From a virus: a stretch of DNA of 25,033 nt. Positions within the stretch are counted from its first letter, which is position 1. Each line of letters starts with the position of its first letter. The notes under the pieces were generated by a model. It saw nothing but the letters and a program-made list of their open reading frames with translations. It searched no databases and was not told where the DNA came from. Below are positions 1-25,033 of this stretch, piece by piece. The position numbers were made by a program, and so were the translations under genes. Location: the IMG/VR virus record IMGVR_UViG_3300032896_000437, positions 1-25,033 of that record, one strand, 5' to 3'.

Positions 1-1683
1 TGGGACGCCTACGCCGCCATTGCCTCACCGTGGTCGTGGCCCGCGGCTGGCGGCCTGGTCGTGCCCGCCGCGGTGCTGATCCCGTTGTGGCCCGCGCTGA
101 AGGAACACGAGGCGCGGATGGCGGAAGAACTGCGCCGCCGGCAGGCCGCGCTCACAGCGGCACAGGGTGCGAAACGCTGGCCCACCCTGCTGGCCAGCAT
201 CGGGCAGAAAGGTGTCACCTACGCCGGCGAGACGGAAACCAAGGCCGGCTACGACGTCGATCTGGAACTGCCCAGCACCGGGCGCGTCACGCTGAAGTCG
301 CTGGCCAGCAGCCTGCATCAGCTGGAGATCGCCGCCAAGGTCCGCGCTGGCAGTCTGTCGTTCGAGCGGATGCCCGGAGCCGACGCGCACCGGGTCATCC
401 TGCACGTGACCACGCGGGACTTCCTCGGCGAGACCATCCCGTTCCCGATCCCCACACGGCGCCGGTCCATCAGCGACCCGATCCCGGTTGGCGTGTACGA
501 GGACGGCGAGATCGCTTACCTGACGTTGCGCGAGGTTTGCCTTCTGATCGTCGCTTTGAGGGGCAAGGGGAAGTCGAACTTGCTCAACGTGCTGATCGCC
601 AATATGGCGTTCTGCGTGGACGTGGTCATCTTCGTCGTTGATCACAAACACCGTCTCGCCCGGCTGTGGATTCAGCCATGGCTGGACGGTGAGAACTCGC
701 GGCCGGTCATCGACTGGGTGGCCACCACTCCCGAGGAAACCGACCTGATGCTGGACGCTTTGCAGCGTGGGGGCGCCGCCCGGACCAGCGCCGGGGACGG
801 CCGGGAAAAGATCACCCCATCCATCAGGGAGCCGGCGGTCATCGTGGTCTGCGATGAGATGGCCGTGGTGTTCGGGCAGAACATGGGCGGCTACAAGAAC
901 CCGGCCGAAGGCCCGACGAACAGTTCGCTGGCCCGGAAGGCCAAGAAGATAACCGTGCTTTACCGGTCCGAGGCCATCGACATGGTCTACGCCACCCAGC
1001 GCGGCACGGTGACCATGGCCGGCGACGGTGACCTCAAGTCCCAGTGTGACGTGCGGATCGGCCTGGGCGTGTCCACCGAGGCGGACGCACGCCTGATCAT
1101 GCCTGACGACCAGATCGCCATCAAGAACCTGGCCCGGCTGTCCGAGCCCGGCTGCGCCATCCTCTGGCGCAAGAACGGCCGCGTCCAGCCGTTCAAGGTG
1201 TTCCGCATCACCGAGGAAGACATCGCCGAGGTGTGCCGCCGCGCCCACCTGTGGCGCCCCGCTCCGGACCCGCTGCTTGAGGAAGCGTTCGGCGACCCGT
1301 ACCGGGAACGCTGGTCGCACCGTGGCCAGTATCTTCTGCCCGGCGGTGGCCAGCCCAGGATGAAGGTTGTCGCACCGCCCGGCACCGACGAGGCCGAGTT
1401 CGAGGCGATCGTCCGTGCCCACCTGTACGACGTGGACATGCCGGTCTCCGAGATGCCGGGCGACGACGACACGGCGTCCCCGCCGCGCAAACGCTACCGG
1501 GAGTTCGCGAAGCGGACGGCCACCGCGGGATTCAACGCGGGCGCTGTCGTCAAGCTGCTGGAAGCCGAAGGCATGCCCGTGACGAGGCAGACGGTCCACC
1601 GCTGGATCAGGGAGGATCACGCCGCCGGGCTGATCGAGCCGATGGGCAAGTTCGGCCGGTGGAAGTGGTGCGCCAGACTGTAA
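1..1683 (+). CDS. FtsK/TraB-type DNA translocase, 5' end outside the window
   Basis: This is probably a membrane-anchored hexameric ATPase that moves double-stranded DNA between mycelial cells, as TraB/TraSA proteins of actinomycete plasmids and AICEs do. The frame is open from base 1, and bases 52-93 encode a hydrophobic stretch, so the true start lies upstream; the first later start, GTG at 61, would cut into that stretch. A P-loop of the form A-LRGK-GKS lies at 553-576 and a Walker B (VIVVCDE) at 838-858. YATQR followed by a DVRIGLG segment is typical of FtsK C-terminal domains. The last 65 or so residues (from about 1486) look like a winged helix with TRQTVHRWIRE, comparable to the FtsK gamma domain or the TraB DNA-reading domain. 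The first Gly of the P-loop is Ala here (GCT), which is unusual. The gene is followed at once by a repeat cluster that may be its target. The family is fairly certain; a conjugation role is inferred. Confidence 0.85.
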   Translation, partial: WDAYAAIASPWSWPAAGGLVVPAAVLIPLWPALKEHEARMAEELRRRQAALTAAQGAKRWPTLLASIGQKGVTYAGETETKAGYDVDLELPSTGRVTLKSLASSLHQLEIAAKVRAGSLSFERMPGADAHRVILHVTTRDFLGETIPFPIPTRRRSISDPIPVGVYEDGEIAYLTLREVCLLIVALRGKGKSNLLNVLIANMAFCVDVVIFVVDHKHRLARLWIQPWLDGENSRPVIDWVATTPEETDLMLDALQRGGAARTSAGDGREKITPSIREPAVIVVCDEMAVVFGQNMGGYKNPAEGPTNSSLARKAKKITVLYRSEAIDMVYATQRGTVTMAGDGDLKSQCDVRIGLGVSTEADARLIMPDDQIAIKNLARLSEPGCAILWRKNGRVQPFKVFRITEEDIAEVCRRAHLWRPAPDPLLEEAFGDPYRERWSHRGQYLLPGGGQPRMKVVAPPGTDEAEFEAIVRAHLYDVDMPVSEMPGDDDTASPPRKRYREFAKRTATAGFNAGAVVKLLEAEGMPVTRQTVHRWIREDHAAGLIEPMGKFGRWKWCARL

Positions 1684-1684
1684 C

Positions 1685-1832
1685 CCAACTGTCGCACCGG
1701 CTGTCACATCAGGTGTCGCATCCATGATCAAAAACTGTAACTGTAACGCGACAGTTGGCCGCTTTTTCGCAGGTCAGCGAGGAACTGTAACGCTGGCGCC
1801 ATGCGACAGGATGACACCCGGCAAACTGTCAC
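1685..1832. repeat. Cluster of CTGT(A/C)(A/G)C repeats, candidate clt-like transfer locus
   Basis: Eight exact copies of CTGT(A/C)(A/G)C lie in about 150 bases: plus strand at 1689, 1701, 1735, 1741, 1785 and 1826, minus strand at 1748 and 1803. There is also a near copy at 1713. Most copies are preceded by AA. The first copy and the minus copy at 1748 form an 11-bp perfect inverted repeat (1685-1695 with 1748-1758). In Streptomyces plasmids the clt locus bound by TraB is a set of short repeats close to traB, and this position and layout fit that. Autonomous origin iterons or an operator are alternatives. The rest of the gap up to 2004 shows no convincing gene. Confidence 0.5.
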
Positions 1833-2004
1833 TCTGGGCTACGCAGCCGGCCCCCGCGCGGCATCCAGGCGAATGCCCCAGGCTCACCATCCCGGGCACA
1901 GGAGAGGCTGCCATGCTGCTGCTCGCCGCTACCGCTGAGACTCAGGGGAGCAGGCCGGGGGCAGCCGCGCAGGCCTGCAGCGCTCTGACGGCCTTTGACC
2001 TGGT

Positions 2005-2280
2005 GTGAACCCGTCGCCAGCGGAGAGCGTCTCTCAAGTGCCCGAACTCCCTCGCGACAGGTGGCTCCCCGCCCTGGTGAACGACAGCCCTGGCCCGGTC
2101 GCGCCGGCTTCCGGCGCCACGGTCCTGCGGATCGTTGTGCGCGACATGCCTGACGGGATGAGGGGGATCGCCTACCGCGGACACGATGGTCTCGTCATCG
2201 TCCTTCGTGCGGGTGGATCATCCGAGGAGCGGTGCGCCGCCGTCCGCCAGGTGGCGCGCGCGCTCGGGCAACGCGAGTAG
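2005..2280 (+). CDS. Small hypothetical protein
   Basis: A 91-residue protein of unknown function. The GTG at 2005 lacks a clear ribosome binding site; GTG at 2038, preceded by GGAGAG, is a possible alternative. The C-terminal half is the more protein-like part: a beta-rich segment with VLRIVVRD and GLVIVLRAG, then a helix with EERCAAVRQVARAL. This beta-then-helix pattern is seen in many short actinomycete element-borne proteins, and no catalytic motif is visible. It ends tail to tail with the minus-strand gene at 2282, one base apart, and no terminator hairpin is evident there. Confidence 0.5.
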   Translation: MNPSPAESVSQVPELPRDRWLPALVNDSPGPVAPASGATVLRIVVRDMPDGMRGIAYRGHDGLVIVLRAGGSSEERCAAVRQVARALGQRE

Positions 2281-2281
2281 C

Positions 2282-2599
2282 TCAGCCCCTCAGACCGTCC
2301 TGCATGGCCTCGGCGATCTGGTTGTCAAGATGCGTGCGAACGAACTCGTCGGCGGCTGACTGCAGCCCGGCATCAGGGTGCTCCACCTCGTGTGCCAGTT
2401 CCACATCGCTGCCGGTTGCCAGGAAGAGCCGGTGATAAGCCTGCATCCACACCAGGGCCTCCGCGGCGGCTTCGCAGAGGCCAAAGGCCAAGGCCTCGGT
2501 GTCGACGGTGATCGGGGGGAATTTCCCTTCCAGGGCATGTCGCATCGTCAGGAGTGCGGCTAGCCGCCCTTCGCGCTTGGCTTTGTCGTCGTCAGCCAC
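2282..2599 (-). CDS. Small acidic hypothetical protein
   Basis: A 105-residue, mostly helical and acidic protein starting with GTG at 2599 behind a GGGAGGG ribosome binding site. It has no recognisable motif. It is the last gene of the minus-strand block led by the phage tail genes, 45 bases after the tape measure stop, so it may belong to the same transcript. In siphoviruses this slot would hold a distal tail or minor tail protein, but this protein is far too short and unlike those, so the tail cluster appears to stop here. Confidence 0.6.
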   Translation of the reverse strand: MADDDKAKREGRLAALLTMRHALEGKFPPITVDTEALAFGLCEAAAEALVWMQAYHRLFLATGSDVELAHEVEHPDAGLQSAADEFVRTHLDNQIAEAMQDGLRG

Positions 2600-2644: not shown

Positions 2645-5600
2645 TCAGACTCCGCGGCCGCGGAGCTGGTAGCCGCTCTTGGTGTTCCGGCGGGCGTGCT
2701 GCAGGGTGTACTTCTGGTTGACCCGGGCCAGGGTCTTGCCGCCGACCACGATGGGCTGGTCCTGGACCAGGTGGATCACGATCGGCTCGGCGCCGCTGCT
2801 TCCGGCCGAGCGGTTGGGCAGGTAACCAGTGAGCGCGCTATTGCCCAGGCGCCCCATCGCCGCGCTCACGGCGCTCTGCCTGGCGTCGATGCCCTGGACT
2901 AGCCCATCGACCACCTGGGAGCCGATTTCCATCGTCGCCTGGGACGGGGAAGAGATCCGCAGCGCGCGCTTGAGGGAGTTCACGAGTTCGTCGGCGACCC
3001 TGTTCATTTCCGCGTCGACGGTTTTGAGTTCGCTGCGCAGCCCAGCGGCCAGGCCGTTGTCGATCTGCGACGCAGCCTCATATGCTGCGTTCGCGCCGGT
3101 GATCCCCAGTTGTTTCGACGCTGTGGCGATCTCGTCTTCGAGCGCGGAAACAGCGGACTTGCCACCTTTGAGGCCGAGGACGAAACCCTGCACGGTTTTG
3201 GTGCCGATGTCGTAGAACTCGGCCGACGGGGAGTGGATGCCGAGGGCTGACATGGCGGCGTGGATCGCGTCCTTGCCGAGGGATTCGGCTTCGCTGACCA
3301 GCGAGCCGTGCAGGGACGCCATGCCGTTGATCAGGCCGTCGATCATGTTCCGGCCGGCGGACCGCAGCCAGCTTGCGGCGCCGTCGAAAACGTGCTTGAT
3401 CTTCCCCGGGATGCCTTCGGCGTACGAGACCACGTGTGACCAGGTCGTATCCCAGTCGTGCTCGATGTCGTGACCGATGTTGATGAGGGTTTCCCGGGCA
3501 ACGTCGGTGGCGTGCTCAACCGCATGCCACGAGGTGTCCCACGCGGCTTCAATGTCGTGGCCCGTGCGGACTATGGTTTCCCGGATGTTATCGAGGATGG
3601 CTTCAGCATTATGGTAAGTGCCGGTTAGCCCTGTTCCGACGGCATTGTTAATATCGTGAAGAGCGCCATTGAAATCATCAACCCAGTTGCGTACATTCTT
3701 GGCGGCCGCTGAGAAGTCATCCCACATGTTCATGGCGTGGCTGATGGCCCGGCCCCACCCGGTGGACCACCAGTTGACCAGGTTGCCCAGAATGTGGAAA
3801 GCGTTCTGGATGTCTTTCGGGCTGAACCTTTCGATGAATTTGCCCCAGTCGCCGATGACCGTGGCCCCGAACTCGCCGATCGCTTCCTCAGCCGGCTTGA
3901 TGTCCGGCTTGATCTTCTCCAGGAACTTCTGCCACCCGGTCGGGTCCGGGGGCGTGGCGATGTCATGGATGTGGTCGGCCAGGCGCCCTGCGGCACCACC
4001 GGGCTTCTGACCCGCGTCAGACTTCGGGATCTTGAAGAACTTCTCAGCCTTGTCGAGCAGGTCATCGATCCCGCCCGCCGCCTGCTCAGCAAGAGGCTTG
4101 AACGTGGGCAGCAGTTCCTCGGCGACCCTGATGCCGCGGTTGAAGATCCCGAAAACGTCCGGCTCGAAGGCTTTGGCCATGCTGTCGTACTCGGATTTCA
4201 GCCGTGCGATCCCGGTGATCGCCCCGGTCTCTGCCGGGCCCATGGACTTGTAGTCGTCCTGGACCTTCTTCAGGGCCTTGGCCTCGGCGTCCAGGTTCGC
4301 GGTGGTCGGGTCCTTGCCGGCTTTCGCAGCGGCCGCCTTGTAGGCGGCCTGGGCCTTGGTGACCTCCTCGTAGCCGTTCTTGAGCTCCTCGAACGCGGGG
4401 ATGGCCAGCGCGACCGCGGGCACGATCCCGGTGATGGCCGCCGAGGCCCCGGCGACCAGCGCGCCCATCTCGGAAGCGACAGACATGATCGCGGCTGCGC
4501 CGCCGGTGAACCACGCCATGTTCCCCAGCAGGCCACCGACTGAGAACCCGCCTTCCCCGCCGCCGCCGGCGAAGCCGAAAAGCTTGCTGAGTATGCCCAC
4601 GCCACCGCCGCTGCCCAGGGCCGCGTCCGCAGCCGACTGTGCGTTCGCCAGCGCGTTAGCACCGGCTGCGGCTTCCTGCTCGCTCGCGCCGAGGGCGAGC
4701 AGCGCCACCCGCGCGTCCTTGGCGATGTCCTCGCTATCGGACAGCGACACCTTCAGGAAGCCGGCTGCGTCACCGGCGCTGGTAAAACGGCTGCCAGCCT
4801 TCGCCATCGCATCATCGAGGAGCTTGATCCCGGTCGTGAACGGCGTCGTCCCGGCCGCGGCGGCGCCCTGCGCGAAGGCGTACTGGCCAGCGGCCCTGGC
4901 GCTGTCGAGAAGCCCCTGCGCCACGTCCTGGGTGGCCTGGTCCACCCCGCCGAACACCTGGGTGAAGTCCTCACCAGAGGACGAGGCGGCCGACAGCGCG
5001 GTGTCCAGGTCCTGGCTGGCCTGGCCGAGGCGGACCAGGTCCTCCCACGACCCGCTGGCGTCATAGGCGTGCCACGCGTCGGAGAACGCCTGCATGGCGG
5101 CGAGCTCGTCGCGCACGTTCGCCGTGAACGTGGCCCCCGCCGCTGCGACGTCGTCGAGGACGCCGGCCTGGCTTTCGATCAGCGGGTTGGCTTTGCCGAT
5201 CGCGTCGCTCGACCCGCTGAGGTCGGTCTCCCAGGTGCTGGCGGCCTGCCCGGCCGACAGGAACTGCTGGAGCAGGCTTGCGGTGCCGGTCTGCTCCATC
5301 TCCTGGAGAAGCTGCGCCAGCTGCTGCGTCGGCTCCCCCTGGCCCGGCAGGGTCCAGCCGAGCCCTGACCGGCCGACGACCAGGCTCTCACCCGCCGCCA
5401 TGCTGAGCATCTGGGTCCGGATGCTCTTCAGGGTGTCCCAGTAATTCGACGCGGCGACCTCGGCGTTTTCCTCGTCCTCGGCGAGGTCATCGAAGTTGAC
5501 GTAACCGCTCGCCGCCAGGCCGGCCTGAGCGTTCTGGAGAGTCTCCGTTTCGGCGACCGCCCTCTGCAGGTCAGTGATGTACTGGCCGATCGACTGCCGG

Positions 5601-6103
5601 TTCGCCATCGCCTCGGCACCGATCCTGGCGCCGGCCGATGCACCTGAGGCGTTGAGAATCTCCATGGCGCCGGCGGCTTCGAGGGTCTTGTTCCGCAAGC
5701 TGTCCATCTCGTTGCCGTCTTCGGCAGCGAACGCGGCGATGTCGTCCAGCCCGGGCCCGCTGGCGACCAGGGCATCGAGCGCCGCCTCAGCCTCGCCGGC
5801 GTCGTCGCGGATCCGGGCCAGCCCTTCCGCTGCGGTCTGCGATTGCGCCGCGATGTCGTCCAGCCCGGTGCCGCTGTCCGACAGGGAATCGACGGCTTGT
5901 TCAGCTTCGGCCGCGGCGTCCCGGATCGAGTCGAGTTCTTCCGCGGCCTCCTCAGCGGCCTCGGCGGTCCCGTCGAGCTCGGCGAAGGCGTTGCGGATCC
6001 GGTCCAGCGCGTCGGCTGCCTCGGTGGCCTCGTCGGTGATCTGCTGGAGCGCCTCGACAAGATCGCTGGAGTCCCCGGTGAAGACTTCCTCGATGTCGGA
6101 CAC
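2645..6103 (-). CDS. Phage tail tape measure protein
   Basis: A 1152-residue protein expected to sit inside the tail tube, set its length and be ejected with the DNA. Residues about 1-150 are Ala/Glu-rich coiled coil with an internal repeat: residues 57-86 and 95-124 align, each ending in SG(T/P)GLDDIAA. A hydrophobic Gly/Ala-rich segment lies at about 522-572, as in many tape measure proteins. Near the C-terminus, the pattern of helix, Asp-Gly-Leu, then IHSPS or ISSPS occurs twice (around residues 950 and 1070), a hallmark of actinophage tape measures. At the usual 0.15 nm per residue it would give a tail of about 170 nm. The start is GTG at 6103, three bases after the gp10-like stop. The flanking tube, chaperone and baseplate genes of a normal siphovirus are absent. 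Confidence 0.9.
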   Translation of the reverse strand: MSDIEEVFTGDSSDLVEALQQITDEATEAADALDRIRNAFAELDGTAEAAEEAAEELDSIRDAAAEAEQAVDSLSDSGTGLDDIAAQSQTAAEGLARIRDDAGEAEAALDALVASGPGLDDIAAFAAEDGNEMDSLRNKTLEAAGAMEILNASGASAGARIGAEAMANRQSIGQYITDLQRAVAETETLQNAQAGLAASGYVNFDDLAEDEENAEVAASNYWDTLKSIRTQMLSMAAGESLVVGRSGLGWTLPGQGEPTQQLAQLLQEMEQTGTASLLQQFLSAGQAASTWETDLSGSSDAIGKANPLIESQAGVLDDVAAAGATFTANVRDELAAMQAFSDAWHAYDASGSWEDLVRLGQASQDLDTALSAASSSGEDFTQVFGGVDQATQDVAQGLLDSARAAGQYAFAQGAAAAGTTPFTTGIKLLDDAMAKAGSRFTSAGDAAGFLKVSLSDSEDIAKDARVALLALGASEQEAAAGANALANAQSAADAALGSGGGVGILSKLFGFAGGGGEGGFSVGGLLGNMAWFTGGAAAIMSVASEMGALVAGASAAITGIVPAVALAIPAFEELKNGYEEVTKAQAAYKAAAAKAGKDPTTANLDAEAKALKKVQDDYKSMGPAETGAITGIARLKSEYDSMAKAFEPDVFGIFNRGIRVAEELLPTFKPLAEQAAGGIDDLLDKAEKFFKIPKSDAGQKPGGAAGRLADHIHDIATPPDPTGWQKFLEKIKPDIKPAEEAIGEFGATVIGDWGKFIERFSPKDIQNAFHILGNLVNWWSTGWGRAISHAMNMWDDFSAAAKNVRNWVDDFNGALHDINNAVGTGLTGTYHNAEAILDNIRETIVRTGHDIEAAWDTSWHAVEHATDVARETLINIGHDIEHDWDTTWSHVVSYAEGIPGKIKHVFDGAASWLRSAGRNMIDGLINGMASLHGSLVSEAESLGKDAIHAAMSALGIHSPSAEFYDIGTKTVQGFVLGLKGGKSAVSALEDEIATASKQLGITGANAAYEAASQIDNGLAAGLRSELKTVDAEMNRVADELVNSLKRALRISSPSQATMEIGSQVVDGLVQGIDARQSAVSAAMGRLGNSALTGYLPNRSAGSSGAEPIVIHLVQDQPIVVGGKTLARVNQKYTLQHARRNTKSGYQLRGRGV

Positions 6104-6106
6104 GCC

Positions 6107-6646
6107 TCAGCCCCCGTCCAGCGCCTCAGTGACGAGCCGGTGCACAGCGTCCTTCGCCGCCGGCTCAACGCCGCCCGCCTTCGCCCAGTCGTGCGCCGGC
6201 CGCATGTAGGGCCTGGCTGGGAGGGTGACGTGCATCGCGAACCGGCGTTCCCCGTCCTGAATCCATGACAGGGAGTGACGCCACTTGTCGTCGTGTTCGC
6301 GGATGCCCCGGGCGGCGTGACCGAAGTGGGCGATGCCGCGCGCTGGCCCGGGGTGGGCGTGGATGGTGCCGCCGTGCTCCTGGATGGCCGCGTAGACGAT
6401 GTGCGGCCCGCATTTCGCTGTGGCGGTCACCCCGCCGGGAGCGGCCTCATCGACCGTCACCGAGTCCGACAGCGCCCCCGAACGCCGCGCCGGAGGCTGC
6501 CCGGGGGCCGACTCACCGTTACTGAGTTCCTTCAGGACGAAACGCCGGAACGACCGGGCTGCCGCGTTGATGCCGTCCGCCGCGCCCCGCTCGGCGACCG
6601 TGTCCGCTGCCTGCTGTGCGCGGCCGGCGAACTCGCGCACATCCAC
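6107..6646 (-). CDS. HK97 gp10-like head-tail/tail completion protein
   Basis: A 179-residue protein resembling HK97 gp10-type connector proteins, which sit at the head-tail junction or terminate the tail. GTG at 6646 was chosen because it is preceded by GGGAGG at good spacing and lies just after the stop of the upstream gene; longer versions would overlap that gene. Seen in the sequence are an N-terminal helix with conserved Arg/Lys, a central SGALSDSVTV segment, the motif VYAAIQEHGG and a C-terminal LPARPYMRPA followed by a helix. The YAxxxEHGG and RP(Y/F)(M/L)RPA motifs are typical of this family. It lies three bases upstream of the tape measure gene and is surely co-transcribed with it. 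Confidence 0.78.
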   Translation of the reverse strand: MDVREFAGRAQQAADTVAERGAADGINAAARSFRRFVLKELSNGESAPGQPPARRSGALSDSVTVDEAAPGGVTATAKCGPHIVYAAIQEHGGTIHAHPGPARGIAHFGHAARGIREHDDKWRHSLSWIQDGERRFAMHVTLPARPYMRPAHDWAKAGGVEPAAKDAVHRLVTEALDGG

Positions 6647-6659: not shown

Positions 6660-7001
6660 TCACCCGGCCGCGACGGCGAACGCTGCGATGTCGACGATCG
6701 GCGAGGTCCCGGTGAGTGTCCACGCCAGCGCCAGCGGCCCGGGCTGCTGCACCTGGACACTGGCCTGCTGCACGCCGGTGCTGCTCTGCGACGGCAGCGT
6801 CAGGATCGGCTCCCACCCGGAGCCGCCCTCCTGCTGCAGGCTGACCGTGATGCCTGCGCCCGACGTCAGCCCAGTGACAGCGCAGAACAGCGTTACGGTG
6901 CCGGAGGACGGCAGGTTCAGCGGTTCGGTTATCCCGCTGGCGGACACACCGCAGCACAGGCCGGCCGCGGGCATCGGTGCGATCGCGAGGGGTGTTGTCA
7001 T
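6660..7001 (-). CDS. Small beta-rich phage-like protein
   Basis: A 113-residue protein with a composition of alternating Thr/Val/Ser and Gly, suggesting a beta-sandwich. It has no charged catalytic cluster. ATG at 7001 overlaps the preceding stop (ATGA) and has AAGGGA upstream. Its position, immediately before a gp10-like protein in a tail operon, would suit a neck or minor tail protein or a small decoration protein, but no family was recognised. It has two adjacent cysteines near residue 16 and no signal peptide. Confidence 0.7.
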   Translation of the reverse strand: MTTPLAIAPMPAAGLCCGVSASGITEPLNLPSSGTVTLFCAVTGLTSGAGITVSLQQEGGSGWEPILTLPSQSSTGVQQASVQVQQPGPLALAWTLTGTSPIVDIAAFAVAAG

Positions 7002-7351
7002 GGGGTCGTCCCTTCAGGTGGTGCGGCTGCGGCCGCGGCGGTCTCCCGCTGGGCGCTGACGACCTCAGCACCGGATACCGGCCCGGCGGGCGTTTCCCGC
7101 TGGCGGGTGATCGCCCGCCCGGCCAGGTACTCGAGCACGCGCCATGGCGACACCCGGAAGGGCCCGAGTTCGTACTCGAGATCGTGCACGAACCTCCGCA
7201 CCGCGCCCGCGTCGCCGTCGCGGATGTGCCCCTCGATGGCGACCGCCGCGAAGTGCTCGTGCGTGCCGATCGGCGACGGGTGGGCCGCGGGATCGACGCC
7301 GTGGCGCGGCTTCAGATGCGGCGCGTTGTTCACCCGGTCGCTGTCAGGCAT
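6998..7351 (-). CDS. Hypothetical protein of the tail operon
   Basis: A 117-residue protein. ATG at 7351 was chosen over an upstream in-frame start because GGAGGG precedes it and it overlaps the preceding stop by only eight bases. The middle section (RRFVHDLEYELGPFRVSPW) is amphipathic and the C-terminus is Ala-rich. The N-terminal part is His/Pro-rich. No known phage family is recognised. By gene order it could be a connector component, but that is inference from neighbours only. Confidence 0.65.
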   Translation of the reverse strand: MPDSDRVNNAPHLKPRHGVDPAAHPSPIGTHEHFAAVAIEGHIRDGDAGAVRRFVHDLEYELGPFRVSPWRVLEYLAGRAITRQRETPAGPVSGAEVVSAQRETAAAAAAPPEGTTP

Positions 7352-14927: not shown

Positions 14928-15052
14928 ACATGCTGGACGTCGGGGGCAGGGCTGTTGCGGTGGCCGCTGGATCTGGGATGGTCCGGCAACTGGCACGGCA
15001 GCCAGCGGGGGTGCTGCGGGTAGCGATGCCCGCAGACGGCGTTTTCAGGCAT
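14864..15052 (-). CDS. Small Cys/His peptide
   Basis: A 62-residue protein starting at ATG 15052 behind a strong GGGAGG. The N-terminal half has C7, H9, H14, C20 and H25 (VCGHR, QHPRWLPC, PDHPRSS), spaced like a small zinc-binding knuckle; the C-terminal half is low-complexity. Its 3' end overlaps the start of the DUF6919-like gene, implying translational coupling. Short Cys/His peptides of this kind are frequent in actinomycete mobile elements, but no function is known. Confidence 0.55.
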   Translation of the reverse strand: MPENAVCGHRYPQHPRWLPCQLPDHPRSSGHRNSPAPDVQHVWQDHGHLPAAATSQSAAASL

Positions 15053-17027: not shown

Positions 17028-17276
17028 AGAAGCGGTCGGAGCGGTCGCAGCGGTCGCAGCGCCGCGTTTATGCAGGTCATAAGCTCGGCATAGGGCGTGA
17101 TCTGGCGACCGCTTGTCATGGCGACCGGTCGCCTGGCGCCGAGAAGCGGTCGCGGCTGGAGGCGGGCGCGGCTGGAGAGAAGCGGTCGCCAGCGACCGGT
17201 GGATTTGGGAAGCGGTCGGCGCAAATATGGTCCCTGACCTGGCGCTGCGACCGCTGCGACCGCTCCGACCGCTTCT
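17028..17276. repeat. Iteron array in a 36-bp inverted repeat, candidate replication origin
   Basis: Bases 17028-17063 and 17241-17276 are perfect inverse copies 36 bases long, separated by 177 bases. Each arm holds three AGCGGTCG units on a 9-base period (plus 17031, 17040, 17049; minus 17248, 17257, 17266). The interval adds further copies (plus 17145, 17181, 17211; minus 17106) and the palindrome GCGACCGGTCGC at 17121. The array starts 51 bases beyond the 3' end of the ATPase gene. SaPI-type satellites place a two-sided iteron origin just 3' of their replication protein gene, so an origin is the first choice. A very large terminator or regulatory array is less likely. The whole 16964-17326 gap holds no other gene. 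Confidence 0.65.
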
Positions 17277-17326: not shown

Positions 17327-19456
17327 TCACGGCCGGGTGTCTGTCTCGAAGCTGTGCACGGACATGTGCAGGTTGCGCCGGTCTTTCCTGCCCCCGAGGT
17401 CGTGGCGGGCGGTGAGGTGGCCTGGGTCGCATGTTGCGAGCAGGCCGCGGTCACGCAGGTGCCCGTGCAGGACCTTCTTGGCGATGCCGAGCTGGCCGCC
17501 GGACGTCTCCGCGAACCGGCGGGCTGCGCGGTAGGCGGCGTCGGGTTCGAGGTGCACGTCCTTGCCGTCGGTCCAGCCGATGAGCTCGCCCCGCGGCCGC
17601 ATCGCGATGTCGCCACCGGTGAGGTATTCCTCCCATCCCCACCGGATCGGGTCGGCGGGGCATCCGCCGTTGAGTGCGGCGATGTGCGCGCCGCCTGATG
17701 CGATCAGCGCGCTGAGGGATGTCAGGTAGACGGTGACCGGGTCGGCGTCGCGGCGGTAGCGGTCTTGGTCGGCGCCGACCTCACACAGTGCTTTCCACGC
17801 GCGTGTCCAGAGCCGCTCGTGCTCCTCGCTGGTGATCGCCTCGGCTGTCAGCGCGTAGGCGAGGAACTCTGACCAGCCGAGGGCGAGGCTGGCGACGTTG
17901 AGCGCGGTCCGGGGATGCTGGCCGTCCGCCCGGGCTTCGTCCCGCAGCCGGCCACGTTCGCCGGCCAGGTACGCGGGCAGGCTTCCGTCCGCGTCATACC
18001 TTGTGGCGAGGTGCCGGATGTAGCCGGCCATGGCGACGGCGTACTGCCCGTCCGTGGCCAGGCCTTGCGCCTTGGTCAGCTCGGCCCGTTTCACGTCGCC
18101 GGGCTTTACCTCGGCCAGGAACGACCGGGCGAGCAGGGACTCGATCGCTGGCGGCAGGTCCTCGGCCGATGCGAGGAGCTGCGCCTGGGGTGGCTTGTCG
18201 GGGCGGCGGGTTCCGTCCGGGCGCAGCCGCCCGCGGCCGGCGCGGTTGGCGCCGCCGCGGATGAGCTGGTCCGCCGCTGCGGCCCGTCGCTGAGCGTCGA
18301 TCTTGGTGATGTCCGGTGAGTAGTCGTCGACGGTGAACAGCGCGTCCTTGAGCGCGTGCGCTTGCATCACCAGGGAGTTCGCGGTGCTGGTCCAGTTCCC
18401 GGGCAGGTTGTAGGCGTCCATCGTCGGGCCGAAGTGCTGCTGGCCGAGGGCGGTCAGCGCGGTCTTGAACGTGCCGCTTCTGCCGTATTCCCAGACGGTG
18501 CAGTCGGGTGGCAGCGGGAGCGGAGCGCGGTATACGGCGGCCAGCAGCGGCACGATCACCGCGTCGGGTGCGACCGCCACCAGCGAAAGGCTCGACCGGA
18601 CAGCGTCGCGGACAGCGGTCGCAGCGGCCGGGGCGGGCAGTGCGTAGCCGCTGAGTGTGCCGAGGTCGACGGTCACCGTATCGTCGAGGCCGTCCGCGCC
18701 GAGAGCGCCCGAGGATGTCAGGTAGACGTGCCGGCCGCCGAGTTCGCGCCAGCCCGTGTGTGTGTACACGGTCTTGCACTCCGGCTCGGCCGCGGATTGG
18801 ACCGCGGCGCGCAGGTGATCGGCGATCGCCAGGCCTGGCATCACGAGCGCCGACGTCCCTGCGGCCTTCGCTGCCCACTGCTGCGGGCGGCCGAGCTGGT
18901 CCGGGGTGATCCGCACCTCGCCTGCCCGGCCATCTTTCGTGACGACCCGGAGCAGCCAGGTCAAGGTCCGTTCGGCACCGTCGTCGAGTGTGAGTTCCTC
19001 GGCGATCTCGCTGGTGAAGGTTGCCAGCATCGTGGGGACAGGGCCGCCTTGCGTTGGCCTGGACCACCAGGTGCAGCCACCCTCGGTGTAGTAAGCGCTC
19101 ATCCCATCCGCAGGCTGAGCCGCAGTGTCGGCTTCGGCGATGAGCTCATCGGCCTGTTCGCCCGCGGTTGGCGGATCCGCGTCGGTCAGCTCAGCGTGCA
19201 GCCGCAGGTCGTCCAGCACCTGGGCGATGTCGCCGCGGGACGGCACTCCGTCATCCGGGTACTTGGTCCGCCATGCTGCACGCATGTCCGCGCCCAGGTC
19301 CCGGCGGTCCTGTCCCTCGAAGAGGTAACGTCGGTCACCCCGGAGCAGGTACGGAAATGCGCTGGTTCGCCGCAGCTCGTACCGGTCCCCGGCGAGCTGG
19401 AGCAGCCGTTCGGACCGCGGCGGTGGCTTCTTGCCTCCCTCTTTCTGGTCGCTCAC
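17327..19456 (-). CDS. DUF927-like replication ATPase/helicase
   Basis: A 709-residue ATPase that probably unwinds the origin for the primase-polymerase encoded just upstream. Walker A is GRSGTFKT (325-332). Walker B is ALFTVDDYS with D377 and D378. LLASAEDLP (about 428-436) fits sensor I, and R444 in LLARSFLAE could be the arginine finger. A THTGWR motif at 232-237 and a beta-rich region before the P-loop are as in DUF927 proteins. The N-terminal 120 residues look like an accessory domain. Start GTG overlaps the prim-pol stop (GTGA). The iteron array lies directly 3'. The ATPase family is clear; helicase activity is inferred. Confidence 0.82.
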   Translation of the reverse strand: MSDQKEGGKKPPPRSERLLQLAGDRYELRRTSAFPYLLRGDRRYLFEGQDRRDLGADMRAAWRTKYPDDGVPSRGDIAQVLDDLRLHAELTDADPPTAGEQADELIAEADTAAQPADGMSAYYTEGGCTWWSRPTQGGPVPTMLATFTSEIAEELTLDDGAERTLTWLLRVVTKDGRAGEVRITPDQLGRPQQWAAKAAGTSALVMPGLAIADHLRAAVQSAAEPECKTVYTHTGWRELGGRHVYLTSSGALGADGLDDTVTVDLGTLSGYALPAPAAATAVRDAVRSSLSLVAVAPDAVIVPLLAAVYRAPLPLPPDCTVWEYGRSGTFKTALTALGQQHFGPTMDAYNLPGNWTSTANSLVMQAHALKDALFTVDDYSPDITKIDAQRRAAAADQLIRGGANRAGRGRLRPDGTRRPDKPPQAQLLASAEDLPPAIESLLARSFLAEVKPGDVKRAELTKAQGLATDGQYAVAMAGYIRHLATRYDADGSLPAYLAGERGRLRDEARADGQHPRTALNVASLALGWSEFLAYALTAEAITSEEHERLWTRAWKALCEVGADQDRYRRDADPVTVYLTSLSALIASGGAHIAALNGGCPADPIRWGWEEYLTGGDIAMRPRGELIGWTDGKDVHLEPDAAYRAARRFAETSGGQLGIAKKVLHGHLRDRGLLATCDPGHLTARHDLGGRKDRRNLHMSVHSFETDTRP

Positions 19457-20349
19457 GCCGCACCACCCCGCGGGTACTGGGCGGCAGCGCGGAAGCCGGA
19501 TGCGACGGTGCGGCGGACCTCCGGGGCAGGAAGGCCGATGCGCTCGCCAGCTCGCTGCAGCAGCGTCTCGACGCGGGCCGCGTCGATCGCGCCGCCGGCC
19601 GCGAGTTGGCCGAGGTTGAATGCCGCCAGGTGCAGGGAGGTGTTCCGCGTGCCCTCACCGGAGCTGAGCACGTTCTCGAGTTCGTACCGCAGCGCGGCCT
19701 GGACGTAACCGCCCGGATGGCGTCCCGGGGTGCGCGTCACCGGAGCCGGGCGGGCCGGCCGTTCGGGTTCGCTGAGGCGGCGCACCCAGAACTCGGGCAG
19801 CGGGGCTAGGGCGTCGCTGCAAGGGGTCAGCCACTTGTAGGGCCGGTGCGTCACCGGGTGGACCGACGGCGCCACCACGATGTACCCGCCGTCGGCCTTG
19901 ATGTCCACACCCGGGCCGCCCTTGCCGGCGCCTGAGGTGATCTTCCCGCCGGGGTGGGCGTAGACCAGGTGATACCCGCCGCGCCCCGTCACCGCCGCGA
20001 CCGTGCGGGGCAGCACACCATCGCTCACGAGCATCCTCATCGTCTCAATGCCGGGCGGGTCGACGTCGACCACCACAGCGCCTGAGACCGAACCCGTACG
20101 GATGGCGAGCAGCCCGCGCGGATGCAGCCGGATCATCGCAGCCAGACGGTCAGCGTCACTCGTCGCGCTATAGAAGCCGTGGCAGCACAGGCAGGTGCAC
20201 GACTCCATCTGCGCGGGCGTCTTGTGGTCGGCCTTGCACCGGTCGCAGTTGGCGACCGGTACCTTCGACGGGGACAAGACGAACGGGCGCCAGCCACGGG
20301 CGATGTAACAGAGCCCCGCCTGCAGCAGGTCATCTGCCCGGCGCGTCAT
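19453..20349 (-). CDS. Bifunctional primase-polymerase (AEP/prim-pol)
   Basis: A 298-residue archaeo-eukaryotic-type primase that can both prime and extend DNA, used by prim-pol plasmids, AICEs and satellites to start replication. ATG at 20349 overlaps the preceding stop (ATGA). Motif I is VVVDVDPPG with D95 and D97, motif II contains H127 (GGYHLVY), and motif III is GVDIKADGGYIVV with D149. A Cys-rich zinc insertion lies at residues 35-56 (CDRCK, CTCLCC). The C-terminal 100 residues (GTRNTSLHLAAFNLGQLAAGG onward) form a helical tail as in related prim-pols. All catalytic residues are present. Confidence 0.9.
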   Translation of the reverse strand: MTRRADDLLQAGLCYIARGWRPFVLSPSKVPVANCDRCKADHKTPAQMESCTCLCCHGFYSATSDADRLAAMIRLHPRGLLAIRTGSVSGAVVVDVDPPGIETMRMLVSDGVLPRTVAAVTGRGGYHLVYAHPGGKITSGAGKGGPGVDIKADGGYIVVAPSVHPVTHRPYKWLTPCSDALAPLPEFWVRRLSEPERPARPAPVTRTPGRHPGGYVQAALRYELENVLSSGEGTRNTSLHLAAFNLGQLAAGGAIDAARVETLLQRAGERIGLPAPEVRRTVASGFRAAAQYPRGGAA

Positions 20350-20561
20350 GCCGCACGCTCCGGTGCCGTGGCCCGCGAGGACAGTACGACGTAGCCCCAG
20401 CACAGGTCGACGCGGCGCTGGCGGTACAGCACGCCGACAACCGGCCGCAATTCGGCCATGGTGACTTTGAGATGGCTGGCCAGCGCTGCGTCGGTCAGCC
20501 CGATCTCACGGGCAAGGATCCCCTCGATCTGGCGCCCCAGCCGCCACTGCGCGGGGGTCAT
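20346..20561 (-). CDS. Small winged-helix-like DNA-binding protein
   Basis: A 71-residue protein from ATG 20561, coupled at both ends by ATGA overlaps. It reads as a small winged helix: helix RLGRQIEGILARE, then LTDAALASHLKVTMAELRPVV as the helix-turn-helix, and RVDLCWGYVVLS as the wing. Being placed before the primase-polymerase, it may bind the origin or regulate replication. The fold is judged from pattern only. Confidence 0.65.
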   Translation of the reverse strand: MTPAQWRLGRQIEGILAREIGLTDAALASHLKVTMAELRPVVGVLYRQRRVDLCWGYVVLSSRATAPERAA

Positions 20562-21032: not shown

Positions 21033-21275
21033 TCAGGCGACGTCGCCAGTTGCCGTGCGCTCGGCGGGCATCTCTACGCCGAGCGCCTCAAAGAGCGCGG
21101 TTCGCGGCACCCTGTATTTCAGGCCGACGCGCAGAACACGGCAGGGGAATTCGCCGGCCTGCGCCAGCTCAAACGCCTTGGTCCGGCCGAGGCCGAACGC
21201 GCGGCGGGCGGTGACCAGATCGACGCTCACGGGCAGTGCGAGCAACTCATCGAGCGACATTTCCAGGCCGATCAT
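21033..21275 (-). CDS. xis: Excisionase/AlpA-like HTH protein
   Basis: An 80-residue MerR-like winged-helix protein of the excisionase/AlpA type. DLVTARRAFGLGRTKAFELAQAGEFPCRVLRVG is the recognised pattern: helix-turn-helix, then the wing leading to a conserved Arg/Lys and KYRVPRTALFE. ATG at 21275 was chosen because GGAGG precedes it, over ATG at 21299. In such elements it binds attachment sites to direct excision by the integrase and may activate replication genes. It is divergent from the XRE regulator. Confidence 0.85.
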   Translation of the reverse strand: MIGLEMSLDELLALPVSVDLVTARRAFGLGRTKAFELAQAGEFPCRVLRVGLKYRVPRTALFEALGVEMPAERTATGDVA

Positions 21276-21426: not shown

Positions 21427-22167
21427 GTGAGCGACGCTGAGCCGCGCAGCGACGCGGGCCTGCCAGCCCGCGTGGTCACGCTGAACCAGCTGGTCGGCTA
21501 CAACATGCGATGGTTCCGGCAGGCTGCAGGCATCACGCAGGAGGAACTAGGCCGCCGCCTGGGCGGGTGGAGCAAAGTCGTCGTATCGGCCGCCGAGCGC
21601 TCCTGGGACGGGCAGCGTGTCAGGAAGTTCGACGCTGACGAGATGACCCGGATCGCGAGCGCTCTGGGTATCCCAGTCATCGCGCTGCTGCTGCCGCCCG
21701 TAGACGCCGACACCGCCGTGGACTACGACTTCGATGTCGGTGCTAACGGCCTGATCGCCATGGAAGAGGTGCTCCGCGTGGTGCTGCCGGAGTACCAAGG
21801 CGGCACCCCAGCCAGCGATGCTTTCATCGGCCGCGTGATCCAGCTGGGCGCGGACTGGTTCATCCGCCAAGGGGATGACTTCGTGCTCGAGGCCAGGCGC
21901 GCAGTAGAGGAGACCTTGAGCGAAACCGGCGCCCAGAGCCTGAAGGGCGAGATCCCTCTGCTGCTGGAGCCGATTGTCCAGGCTCGGAAGGACCTGCAGC
22001 GCCGTGTCACGGACCTGCGGGCATTCGAGCGCGAGTACCGACTCAGGCTCATCAAGTACCACGATGAGGCGCTCCGCGAGCTGCTCGCCGGGGTGGAAGA
22101 CCCAGACACCCTCCCGGCCGGCGAGGCACCCCCGGAGGACAGGCCCGCAAAAGGTGGCGATCAGTGA
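21427..22167 (+). CDS. XRE-family regulator, probable maintenance repressor
   Basis: A 246-residue protein. Residues about 20-75 are a Cro/C1-type helix-turn-helix (MRWFRQAAGITQEELGRRLG, then WSKVVVSAAERS, and MTRIASALGIPVIALLLPP). The remaining 170 residues are acidic and helical with VLRVVLPEY and a coiled segment around VQARKDLQRRVTDLRAFEREY, perhaps for dimerisation or sensing an inducer. GTG at 21427 is used because the promoter boxes predict a leaderless start there. It is divergent from xis and overlaps the integrase start (GTGA). Position and orientation match the master repressor (Stl-like) of phage satellites or the regulator of AICEs. Confidence 0.8.
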   Translation: MSDAEPRSDAGLPARVVTLNQLVGYNMRWFRQAAGITQEELGRRLGGWSKVVVSAAERSWDGQRVRKFDADEMTRIASALGIPVIALLLPPVDADTAVDYDFDVGANGLIAMEEVLRVVLPEYQGGTPASDAFIGRVIQLGADWFIRQGDDFVLEARRAVEETLSETGAQSLKGEIPLLLEPIVQARKDLQRRVTDLRAFEREYRLRLIKYHDEALRELLAGVEDPDTLPAGEAPPEDRPAKGGDQ

Positions 22168-23600
22168 GGGGCTCGGTCTTCCGGCAGTGCTGGTGCCGCG
22201 ACCCGGAGACTGGCAAGAAGCTGCATGGCAAGTGCCCCAAGCTGCGGCAGAAGAGCCACGGTTCCTGGTGGGTGCGGTTCGACGCGCCGCGCTCGCGGGG
22301 GGAGCGCCGGCGGCAGCCGCTCGCGGGCCCGTTCCGGACGCAGCGCGAAGCTGAGGAGGAGCTCGCCACGGCGCTGGCGAGGATCGGCGGCGGCGGGTCG
22401 GCGCCGGACCGGTCGCTCAGGGTCGGCCCCTACCTGACCGCGTACGCCGCCGGCAAGGTGGACGTGAAGCCCCGGACCCAGGAGGCGATCCGCGAGGCCG
22501 TTGACCTGTACTGGAAGCCGGCACTCGGCCACCTGCGCCTGGTCGACCTGCGCGACCATCATGTCTCCGAGGCTGTCCGTGAGCTGATGAAGATCAACCG
22601 GCCGCTGGCGGACGGCGAGAAGCCCTCGGAGACGCTGCGCCGGCTGCTGGCCGTCCGGGCTGACGACGTGCGCCGCGAGTTGCCCGCTGGCGAGGTGAGG
22701 CACAAGAAGTCGACCAAGCCGCTGTCACCGGCGCGGATCCGGCGCGTGTTCGCCGTGCTGCACGCGGCGCTCGAGGCCGCCGTGCCGGGCAAGATCAGCG
22801 TGAACCCGTGCGACGGGGTGACCCTCCCGCGGGTGCCGAGGGTCCGGCCACTGCCCTGGTCGGCCGACCGCGAAGCGGCATTCTGGGCAGCACTCAAACG
22901 CAGCATGGCTGCCGCGGCCGGAGACCGGGATCTTACGACCGTGGAGAAACAGCGCGCGTGGGCTGACCCGCAGCTGCGCCCGTGCCCGGTCATGGTCTGG
23001 CTTCCCGCGCATACCGGCCGGTTCCTGGACTTCACCGAGCAGGCGGGCGAGCGGCTGTTCGCCCTGTTCGCCCTGGTCGCCTACTGCGGACTGCGGCGTG
23101 ATGAGGTGGTCGGCCTGGGCTGGGCTGACCTTGACCTTGACCAGGGCATCGCCAGCATCCGGGAGACCGGCGGCGGAGACGGCCCGAAGAGCGAGTCAGG
23201 CACCCGCGCAGTCCCGCTCCCGGCCCCGGTCGCCACGGCACTGCGGGCCTGGCGCAAGCAGCAGGCCGCCGACCGCCTCGCCTGGGGGTCGGACTGGACC
23301 GACAACGGGCGCGTGTTCACGCGCGAGGACGGCACGGCCGTGCCTGGTCAGTGGGTTTCCACCCGGTTCGCAACGCTGGCCTTCCGGGCCGGCCTGCCGC
23401 CGGTCCGGTTCCACGATCTGCGGCATGGTGCGGCCAGCGTCTGCAAGGCTGCCGGGCTCGACTCGAAGTTCATCAGCGCCCTGCTGGGTCACTCGAGGAC
23501 GTCATTCACCGACAGCACTTACGTGCTGGTGTTTCCCGAGGTCGCCAAAGCCGCAGCCGAGGCGGCCGCGGCGGTCGTGCCCCGCGCCGACCGGATCTGA
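22164..23600 (+). CDS. int: Tyrosine-type integrase of the element
   Basis: A 478-residue phage-type integrase. The catalytic residues are complete: R311 (CGLRRDEVVGL), K342 (PKSESGTRAVPL), H417-R420-H421 (HDLRHGAASV), H443 (LLGHSR) and Y453 (STYVLVFPE). The N-terminal 60 residues are arm-binding and contain a Cys set (QCWCRDP, GKCPKL) that may bind zinc. The core-binding domain has an extra basic segment at about 140-190. The start GTG overlaps the XRE stop, so regulator and integrase share a transcript. It would recombine the element with its chromosomal attachment site, but no tRNA or obvious att core is in the window. Confidence 0.92.
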   Translation: MRGSVFRQCWCRDPETGKKLHGKCPKLRQKSHGSWWVRFDAPRSRGERRRQPLAGPFRTQREAEEELATALARIGGGGSAPDRSLRVGPYLTAYAAGKVDVKPRTQEAIREAVDLYWKPALGHLRLVDLRDHHVSEAVRELMKINRPLADGEKPSETLRRLLAVRADDVRRELPAGEVRHKKSTKPLSPARIRRVFAVLHAALEAAVPGKISVNPCDGVTLPRVPRVRPLPWSADREAAFWAALKRSMAAAAGDRDLTTVEKQRAWADPQLRPCPVMVWLPAHTGRFLDFTEQAGERLFALFALVAYCGLRRDEVVGLGWADLDLDQGIASIRETGGGDGPKSESGTRAVPLPAPVATALRAWRKQQAADRLAWGSDWTDNGRVFTREDGTAVPGQWVSTRFATLAFRAGLPPVRFHDLRHGAASVCKAAGLDSKFISALLGHSRTSFTDSTYVLVFPEVAKAAAEAAAAVVPRADRI

Positions 23601-23685: not shown

Positions 23686-24579
23686 CTACTCCCCCCGCGA
23701 CGACTCGCTCAGATAGGCGTCATTCCCTGGCCGCCGCAGCCAGCGCCGCTCATACGCTGCCCTGTGCCCGAGGTACCAGGCAGCGGGCGGGGTTGCGGTG
23801 ATCGCCTGCGCAAGATGCTTCGCCGCGTCGGTGCGCAGCGTCGGCAGCGCCGCCTCGCGCCACGGGCCGGCATCGTAGCCCTGCTCGATGTACTCATCAG
23901 CCTGCAAGATCAGCTCAAGCTTGTCCGCGTCGTGCGCGAGCTGCGCTTCCGTTGTCTCATTCGCTTCGTACTCTGCGACAAGACCCGCGATCAGTTTTGC
24001 CGCGTCGTCACTCAGTCCCGCGATCTGGCGGCCGGTGATCGCTTCGGCGTCGTGCACGGTTACGTATCCTCGCCCGACCGCGTCGATGTCGCCGGTCCGG
24101 GTTTCCTGCGTGTCGTGCACGAGGCACAGCGCAGCGGTGCGGGTAGCGTCCGCCCCGCTCTCCGCGGCCAGGATCATGCCCACCATCGCGGCCCGGAATG
24201 AATGCCCGGCAACGTCCTCCGGCTGCGTGATCCCCAGGTGGAACCATCCTGAGCGCGGCAAGACCTTTAGCTTCCCCATCTCGAACAGGAACATGGCCAG
24301 CCCGGCTAGCGGGTGATCCTGGTCTTCCGGCACGGGCAGGCCGGCCTGGTCACGCACCCATACGTGGGCACCGGGCCGGCTGGTGACGAAACCTTCGGTG
24401 CGCAGGACGCGGATGGCTGAGCCGATCGTCACCTTCGCCACGCCGAAGCGTTCGGCCAGCTCGCCCGTACTGGGCAGTTGTGCCCCGGGCTCTAGCTCGC
24501 CGGTGAGGATTGCGGCCCGGATGGATGCCGCGATCTGGACGTAGGGACGCCGCGGGTCGTCTGGGTCGATTGGCTGCAT
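23686..24579 (-). CDS. GntR regulator fused to an HD (YfbR/HDDC2-like) nucleotidase domain
   Basis: A 297-residue fusion. Residues 10-77 are a GntR winged helix (ASIRAAILTGELEPGAQLPS, then LAERFGVAKVTIGSAIRVLR). Residues about 90-235 are an HD domain of the YfbR/HDDC2 5'-deoxynucleotidase type: H126 (AGHSFR), H155-D156 with E159 (HDTQET) and D217 within AHDADKLE. Thus all metal ligands appear intact. GntR proteins of AICEs (KorSA type) normally end in a ligand-binding domain; here the ligand could be a deoxynucleotide or the protein may hydrolyse one. ATG at 24579 lies nine bases after TAGGCT, so the transcript is nearly leaderless. It is convergent with int and divergent from the HTH gene. 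Confidence 0.85.
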   Translation of the reverse strand: MQPIDPDDPRRPYVQIAASIRAAILTGELEPGAQLPSTGELAERFGVAKVTIGSAIRVLRTEGFVTSRPGAHVWVRDQAGLPVPEDQDHPLAGLAMFLFEMGKLKVLPRSGWFHLGITQPEDVAGHSFRAAMVGMILAAESGADATRTAALCLVHDTQETRTGDIDAVGRGYVTVHDAEAITGRQIAGLSDDAAKLIAGLVAEYEANETTEAQLAHDADKLELILQADEYIEQGYDAGPWREAALPTLRTDAAKHLAQAITATPPAAWYLGHRAAYERRWLRRPGNDAYLSESSRGE

Positions 24580-24587
24580 GGGTTCAA

Positions 24588-24694
24588 AGCCTACCTGTCT
24601 GGATAGGCCGTGTCTGCCCCGGCCGTGTTGACGGGCCGTTGTGGATAGGCTTACGCTCAGTCGCGGATAGCTGTGTCACCCATTCTGGATAGGC
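24588..24694. promoter_or_regulatory. Divergent promoters with phased GGATAGGC operator repeats
   Basis: Four GGATAG(G)C copies start at 24601, 24643, 24665 (GGATAGC) and 24687, so they are 42, 22 and 22 bases apart, close to whole helical turns. The minus-strand promoter for the GntR-HD gene has CAGACA (24616-24611) and TAGGCT (24593-24588) 17 bases apart, with the first repeat between them. The plus-strand promoter has TTGACG (24628-24633) and TACGCT (24652-24657) 18 bases apart, with the second repeat between them. The other two copies lie just downstream. The GntR protein is the natural binder. The repeats are seen directly; the binder is inferred. Confidence 0.6.
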
Positions 24695-24786
24695 GGCGCA
24701 GGCGGCAAACGGGAAGGCGGCGATATGGCGGCTGCCAGGATCATCTGCCGCCCGGACGCAGCCGGGCCTCTCCTGTTGTATTACTC

Positions 24787-24802
24787 GCTACATTACTGTA
24801 GC
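24787..24802. promoter_or_regulatory. GCTACA-4-TGTAGC inverted repeat before the small HTH gene
   Basis: GCTACA (24787-24792) and TGTAGC (24797-24802) are perfect inverse copies around TTAC, nine bases before ATG 24812. TACTGT inside it could be a -10 box. TTACTGT and the 8-mer ACTGTAGC are shared with the site upstream of the XRE regulator (21402-21420), suggesting one protein controls both genes. Confidence 0.5.
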
Positions 24803-24811
24803 GTGCGATGC

Positions 24812-25033
24812 ATGACGGATCTGACCGTACGGCAAGCCAGGGAACTGCTCGCCGCGTGGGCCGCTGACAAGGATGCGGTAGCGCGCAAGCGTGACGACGT
24901 GGTCCGTGCGGTGATCGCCGCCGGCGTCAGCAAGAACGAGGTGCACAAGGTGACGGGCATCGCGAGAACCACGATCGACCGCATCATCGGCTCCGGGCGC
25001 GCCTCATCCGCCAGCGAAGGCGCCACGGCATGA
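24812..25033 (+). CDS. Small HTH protein
   Basis: A 73-residue protein ending exactly at the last base of the window. An N-terminal charged helix (ARELLAAWAADKDAVARKRD) precedes a Fis/resolvase-like helix-turn-helix at residues about 33-60 (VIAAGVSKNEVHKVTGIART, then TIDRIIG). ATG at 24812 is preferred to ATG at 24725, because the upstream extension is poorly biased and contains the inverted repeat. It may be an activator or Cro-like partner to the element's repressors. Confidence 0.7.
   Translation: MTDLTVRQARELLAAWAADKDAVARKRDDVVRAVIAAGVSKNEVHKVTGIARTTIDRIIGSGRASSASEGATA

Follow-up and report, generated by a model that had tools for sequence, protein, structure and literature searches.

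What kind of genetic element carries, on one stretch of DNA, an FtsK/TraB-type translocase, an integrase with a replication module, and the terminase and tape measure genes of a phage is the question raised by the IMG/VR record IMGVR_UViG_3300032896_000437, whose entire contig (25,033 bp, linear) was analysed and is referred to here as the window. The source DNA looks actinobacterial. Both ends of the contig fall within genes, a 5′-open FtsK gene from base 1 and a 3′-open gene that runs to base 25,033, so the window is a fragment and whatever was not found in it applies to that fragment. With a probability of about 0.6, the window makes up most of a single actinobacterial integrative element that has the genes by which actinomycete integrative and conjugative elements (AICEs) are recognised, a layout like that of phage-inducible chromosomal islands (PICIs), and captured packaging and tail genes, and that travels by phage hitchhiking.

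The gene caller placed 30 genes in the window, of which 23 were scanned with PHROGs profiles; the other seven encode 39-116 amino acids (aa). Profile searches confirmed the FtsK/TraB translocase, prim-pol, terminase large subunit (TerL), tape measure, gp10-like and integrase genes that the initial annotation had named from the letters alone, and its report that portal, major capsid, protease and major tail genes are missing held for the 23 scanned genes of the fragment. The int/xis/prim-pol core that it described stands as to integrase and prim-pol; no excisionase was recognised among the scanned window genes. By third-position GC content (GC3), the genes between 6.6 and 8.9 kb are minus-strand genes, codirectional with the tape measure gene, and their earlier strand assignment was corrected accordingly. 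A second integrase and genes resembling the terminase small subunit (TerS; 13607-14200, probably also 11349-11798) are additions to the earlier inventory.

The replication module ends in what is probably, from its sequence, an origin. Directly after the helicase gene, AGCGGTCG occurs in ten copies (both strands) within 349 bp, whereas no 8-mer exceeded four copies in 480 other sequence intervals; in a cruder test on a 649-bp stretch, the ten copies compare with a maximum of seven in 200 shuffles. Part of the array forms a 36-bp perfect inverted repeat built of 9-bp units of the AGCGGTCGC type, with extra copies between the arms. Arrays at the identical place, with motifs that differ from those of the window, follow the helicase genes of two chromosomal relatives, G654 (seven copies, against at most five in 779 other intervals) and G268 (ten copies, against at most four in 235). 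Of the four elements, three thus show an iteron-like array immediately behind the helicase gene, at a level reached by 0/480, 0/779 and 0/235 other intervals. The match of the helicase family to DUF927 is weak, being obtained with the G654 homolog only at E 0.005, below the cut-off.

Relatives of the window were found by helicase searches of genomes, with matches in 1/18, 3/394, 1/35, 3/293, 5/394, 1/3 and 1/224 genomes of overlapping samples; 2-5 candidates per genome were scored in the three largest samples and in that of 224. Three are close (G654, G420 and G268), and the more distant matches are G093, G040, G018, G562, G729, G448 and G950. G654 is bounded by 44-bp perfect direct repeats of a tRNA-Thr 3′ end (7606-7649 and 31903-31946, 24,297 bp apart), its integration site. 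The 36 called genes of this unit include int, an XRE regulator, prim-pol, the helicase, xis (phrog_66, E 1.1e-9), FtsK (phrog_1358, E 1.8e-18), a weakly matched TerS-like helix-turn-helix (HTH) protein (phrog_7344, E 2.5e-5), and an open tape measure frame of 1,447 aa, the first 995 residues of which matched phrog_4197 at E 5.1e-104. Profile scans, which most of its smaller genes lay outside, recognised no portal, capsid or TerL gene in G654; its longest unassigned gene (279 aa) matches DNA-binding proteins and the next (243 aa) has no match.

The chromosomal locus G420 has an XRE-int pair followed, in the opposite direction, by xis (phrog_66, E 3.2e-9), prim-pol, helicase, a protein in the TerS position, a coiled coil, a protein of a head-region family and a jelly roll. 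Counterparts of the coiled coil and jelly roll lie in the left half of the window, and those of prim-pol, helicase, XRE and int in its right half, with the order kept. G268 lies on a contig of 12.7 kb, the end of which comes just upstream of the helicase gene; the five proteins scanned from it comprise a recombinase, two without a match, and two HTH proteins encoded by adjacent genes (contig L128, 6521-7530), both of phrog_5536, a phage family without assigned function. Left of the G420 element (contig C22, about 40267-52677; L190 267-12677) lies an FtsK/TraB-like cluster with STAS-, ATPase- and hemC-like genes by eye, all of which may or may not belong to it. The G420 gene at 55879-56751 was considered as a head protease and rejected: it matches head-region genes at E down to 8.9e-54, but phrog_207 only at E 0.012, and its prophage homolog in L094 had no such match.

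The claim that the window is a one-element hybrid gains from the repeat-bounded gene set of G654 and from the order that G420 preserves across both halves, and loses in that no relative has the exact window set. Misassembly of a phage contig with an AICE contig, which the origin of the record in a virus collection might suggest, is very improbable, because a single chromosomal locus, G420, holds homologs from both window halves in order, which makes a chance or chimeric join unlikely.

The TerL coding frame is intact, as the initial annotation had stated for it and for that of the tape measure gene, the two being open over 1,593 bp and 3,459 bp, respectively, and the aligned TerL retains what we take to be the Walker and nuclease motifs. 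The closest relatives of this TerL (50-64% identity), obtained from two alignment-guided scans, one over viral contigs and the other over genome contigs, are five viral loci (L012-L016, among 80 kept) and 17 bacterial loci (L092-L108; 55-64% identity) of Streptomyces, Kitasatospora, Catenulispora and relatives. In all 22 of these loci, some of them near-duplicates (L013 and L100, for instance), a portal-sized open reading frame (ORF) of 461-719 aa comes after TerL (in L014, behind a 39-aa ORF on the opposite strand), and the portal family was confirmed for 4/4 of those tested. Downstream of the window TerL there are instead a 149-aa gene, a 127-aa gene and an opposite-strand recombinase. TerL of the window clade, and with it any helper prophage of that type, was not found in the G654, G420 and G268 genomes by a search that had no positive control and so shows little.

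The protein of 13607-14200 is called TerS-like because it matches genes directly before TerL, in L014 (where the gene overlaps the TerL start), L096 (E 2.1e-6) and L098 (E 4.8e-5), and an L012 gene that lies about 4 kb before TerL; PHROGs gave it no significant family. Judged by sequence, 11349-11798 is probably also TerS-like: the family of its G420 counterpart, although labelled 'RNase E' by PHROGs (phrog_645, E 6.1e-24), sits directly before TerL in several prophages. It has no PHROGs match itself. A TerS fold was sought for 11349-11798 in a fold search, which gave no significant match. The second recombinase (12175-13167), lying between the TerS-like and TerL genes, might serve an attachment (att) site of its own, an inversion or a nested element.

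The tape measure gene is preceded by the gp10/Neck1-like gene, scored on a longer ORF (6107-6760) and 26% identical to the gene that immediately precedes the tape measure gene in phage record G005. Next to it, the jelly-roll protein (6660-7001) belongs to a family that sits in the head region of related prophages, its G420 homolog matching prophage genes down to E 9.4e-11. Its predicted model (pLDDT 68, pTM 0.64) has generic jelly rolls as Foldseek matches, with the phage KHP40 cement protein (7dou) at rank 42, and it is possibly cement- or decoration-like on that model. A portal gene is excluded by size, since the longest window gene without assigned function encodes 236 aa and the portal-sized ORFs behind related TerL genes measure 461-719 aa; a very small, diverged capsid protein may be compatible with the gene sizes, the major head proteins confirmed in two related phages being of 458 and 304 aa. 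A precedent for a displaced tape measure gene exists in Streptomyces phage Mischief19 (L129 4246-8070), where the gene annotated as tape measure is flanked by terminase and portal and is well separated from the one annotated as major tail gene.

The integrase and late genes look, from their sequences, to be derived from temperate actinophages, because of their likeness to G005 and G411. G005 (IMGVR_UViG_3300036792_000218, 92 kb) is a temperate actinophage that shares with the window TerL (about 50%), the integrase (57%), the DUF6919 protein (39%) and the C-terminus of the tape measure, whose gene is likewise immediately preceded by a gp10-like gene; G411 (110 kb) has the XRE-int pair in common with the window (integrase 60-61%). 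Portal and major head genes are present in both phage records, and G411 has no TerL match to the window. G005 differs from the window in its portal and major head genes and in having no match to the window helicase; neither had four other phage records searched, and the window prim-pol found no match in G411. A 387-aa gene of G005 was considered as the major tail protein and rejected, having no PHROGs match. Sixteen phage contigs with a related helicase (24-31%) have only recombinase matches in common with the window at E 0.01. Single-protein scans of viral contigs (tape measure, TerL, FtsK, helicase, TerS-like) gave no confirmed relative, and alignments did better.

The window integrase is homologous to those of G654 (E 8.6e-12) and G420 (E 3e-7); a profile search of 394 genomes at E 1e-100, too strict a threshold, gave no match. 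Related integrases (window 22164-23600; L178 10001-11443; L164 1409-2896) sit in phages with differing terminases, so the integrase seems to spread on its own, apart from the late genes. The first plasmid in the list of matches to the window FtsK is Frankia pFQ12 (31%). Eleven phage records of actinobacteria also have FtsK-like genes, and for that reason FtsK by itself is weak evidence for conjugation; its gene lies at the truncated end of the window, and also within the repeat-bounded G654 unit. No tRNA gene and no Rfam match were found in the window.

Table 1. Features of the 25,033-bp window, in window coordinates.
Position	Strand	Feature	Evidence
1..1683	+	FtsK/SpoIIIE-like (TraB-type) DNA translocase, 5′ end truncated by contig end	phrog_31069 E 2.9e-44
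2282..2599	-	Small ORF after tape measure	gene call; no family match over nearly all of its length
2645..6103	-	Tail length tape measure protein, 1152 aa	phrog_305 E 2.5e-32
6107..6646	-	gp10/Neck1-like tail completion protein, directly before tape measure	phrog_5 E 1.6e-6
6660..7001	-	Small jelly-roll protein	G420 homolog E 1.5e-12
6998..7351	-	ORF without assigned function	gene call and coding GC3; tape measure-side operon with 6660..7001
7344..8003	-	219-aa protein with lysine-rich stretch	gene call, coding GC3; no family match
8275..8946	-	Coiled-coil-like protein (by eye)	common to G420 element (56937-57530), E 1.4e-7
9004..9714	+	Gene with HTH-like C-terminus by eye	overlaps TerL start by 4 bp; no significant family
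9711..11303	+	Terminase large subunit TerL	phrog_979 E 1.4e-35; Terminase_6N E 1.9e-6
11349..11798	+	Possible TerS-family relative without HTH part, 149 aa	E 9.3e-7 to G420 protein
11795..12178	+	Small gene downstream of 11349..11798, 127 aa	gene call
12175..13167	-	Second tyrosine recombinase	PF00589 E 3.2e-16
13607..14200	-	TerS-like protein	45% to gene overlapping TerL start in L014, E 1.4e-41
14226..14996	-	DUF6919 protein	PF21897 E 1.9e-39; homolog in phage record G005, 39%
17028..17276		Probable replication origin	AGCGGTCG repeats immediately behind helicase gene, some within 36-bp perfect inverted repeat
17327..19456	-	Probable replication helicase, P-loop protein, possibly DUF927-like	homologs in G268 46%, G420 52%, G654 42%
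19453..20403	-	prim-pol	PF09250 E 9.6e-33
21033..21275		Small gene at xis position of relatives	phrog_32619 only (family without assigned function), E 5.2e-10
21427..22167	+	XRE-type regulator, overlaps int start	HTH_3 E 4.6e-5; 41% to pre-int gene of phage record G411
22164..23600	+	Tyrosine integrase	PF00589 E 8.6e-19
23686..24579	-	GntR-HD regulator	HD_3 E 3.2e-30, GntR E 3.4e-15
24725..25033	+	HTH-like gene, truncated by contig end	weak HTH matches

The genes by which AICEs are defined include a tyrosine or serine integrase, a replication protein (RepSA, RepAM or prim-pol) and an FtsK translocase, and TraB/FtsK proteins move double-stranded DNA during AICE transfer, according to the excerpted text of PMC3218068. 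The window resembles the AICEs of that excerpt in its tyrosine integrase (PF00589, E 8.6e-19), its prim-pol (PF09250, E 9.6e-33) with a second replication gene and, if the gene at the truncated end belongs to the element, its FtsK, and G654 in its position at a tRNA gene; both differ from AICEs in their terminase-type and tape measure genes. By gene criteria (integrase, prim-pol, FtsK), G654 is an AICE with extra phage genes.

In PICIs, including Staphylococcus aureus pathogenicity islands (SaPIs), the rep gene is followed by the origin, and SaPI DNA packaging is directed by TerS (PMC6092414, in excerpt). The window and G654 have this layout, with regulator and int pointing in one direction, pri-rep-ori followed by TerS in the other, and an iteron-like array directly after rep; xis was recognised in G654 and G420, not in the window. 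PICIs are further marked by att sites that prophages never use, where G654 has its tRNA-Thr, and by induction and packaging that depend on a helper phage. Unlike the PICIs of that excerpt, which measure about 12-15 kb, G654 spans 24,297 bp and the window alone 25 kb, and the absence of phage structural genes that is expected of a PICI does not extend to the window (tape measure and gp10-like genes) or G654 (tape measure), both of which also have an FtsK translocase. Like capsid-forming PICIs (cf-PICIs; PMC10690885, in excerpt), the window has its own TerL and TerS-like genes in an integrated satellite layout; cf-PICIs carry their own major capsid, portal and protease genes and use helper tails, whereas the window has tail genes, and capsid, portal and protease were not found among the scanned genes of what is a fragment; G654, as far as its genes were scanned, has no recognised capsid gene either. 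The Streptomyces satellites of the Flayer and Mulch systems are, like the window, actinobacterial and equipped with terminase genes; as excerpts of the same source describe them, they have genes for portal and capsid but not key replication genes, whereas in the window it is the other way round. Predicted Actinomycetota PICIs are mentioned there as well. In the open-licence literature, no AICE or satellite with a tape measure gene is described in the titles and opening lines of abstracts among the matches listed, and 'AICEs' and 'tape measure' occur together in no open-licence paper searched.

The main rival to an integrative element is an ordinary temperate siphophage of actinobacteria, 50-110 kb in size, of which the contig would be a 25-kb piece, with the portal, capsid, major tail and lysis genes lying outside. 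We consider this unlikely. Several observations weigh against the integrative element or in favour of a phage fragment. Both contig ends lie within genes, and no convincing att repeats were found inside the window among the matches listed. The closest integrases are those of complete 92-110-kb phages, one of which, G005, also shares TerL, the gp10-tape measure order and DUF6919; FtsK-like genes are found in actinophages, and Mischief19 has its tape measure gene away from the major tail gene. The relatives share modules with the window and not an identical gene set: neither G654 nor G420 has a TerL of the window type, G654 has no match to the window coiled coil or jelly roll, and the comparison in which the FtsK proteins of G420 and G654 matched each other gave no match for the window FtsK. 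There are few close relatives of the helicase (three in 1,361 genome searches, repeats included). In G420, the best candidate for a left-end repeat did not rise above 12 random controls, so the FtsK-like cluster on that side may or may not be part of the element, and the post-helicase repeats were not significant with 8-mers, the level being reached by 263/1026 other intervals. GGGAA occurs 12 times in that G420 region, against at most four elsewhere, a motif picked post hoc; in a general 5-mer test the level was reached by 43/1026 intervals. Against a phage fragment, the replication module, the position of the origin, the coiled coil and the jelly roll match chromosomal elements without recognised capsid genes, the phage records had no helicase or prim-pol match as detailed above, and behind TerL the window has two small genes and a recombinase where 22/22 relatives have a portal-sized gene.

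A prophage that decayed inside an AICE, leaving terminase and tape measure genes as functionless leftovers, would account for the portal and capsid genes missing relative to G005, for the scrambled order in which TerL and the TerS-like gene 13607-14200 are on opposite strands, and for phage-type genes that differ among the window, G654 and G420. Such decay is improbable, as the tape measure (3.5 kb) and TerL (1.6 kb) frames remain open with the TerL motifs kept, and as the open tape measure frame of G654 and other open phage-type genes of G420, in a similar layout, disfavour independent decay.

The integrative element is probably a phage hitchhiker. From its gene content, the G420 synteny, the repeat-bounded G654 unit and the iteron-like arrays, all directly observed, we infer how its excision, replication, packaging, transfer and role in tails might proceed. 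Tyrosine integrases excise and integrate DNA, and the element would integrate by means of the one encoded next to the XRE regulator and replicate from the iteron-type origin with prim-pol and the helicase. It would have two exits from the cell, FtsK-driven transfer and hitchhiking in a helper siphophage. Upon helper infection, the element would excise and replicate, its own terminase would package its DNA in capsids of the helper, whose tails the tape measure and gp10-like proteins would re-specify, disturb or block; alternatively, the tape measure protein might act purely by interference. The use of borrowed capsids and the setting of tail length by the element, as the initial annotation had proposed, are plausible readings of the genes. 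A 2024 paper is entitled 'Tail assembly interference is a common strategy in bacterial antiviral defenses' (PMC11364771).

Only tentatively, and with doubt outweighing belief, may the window be taken to represent a new class of phage satellites of actinobacteria, conjugative as well, that borrow the capsid and bring their own packaging motor and tail ruler, a mirror of the capsid-forming PICIs with a satellite-specified tail. If so, cell-to-cell DNA transfer and phage hitchhiking would be joined in one element; tail genes would be kept and the capsid borrowed, the reverse of capsid-forming satellites; and a tape measure protein, normally a building part only, would be carried by a satellite to re-tail or sabotage helper particles. 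An element of the G654 type would offer a compact, exactly bounded unit for testing such roles.

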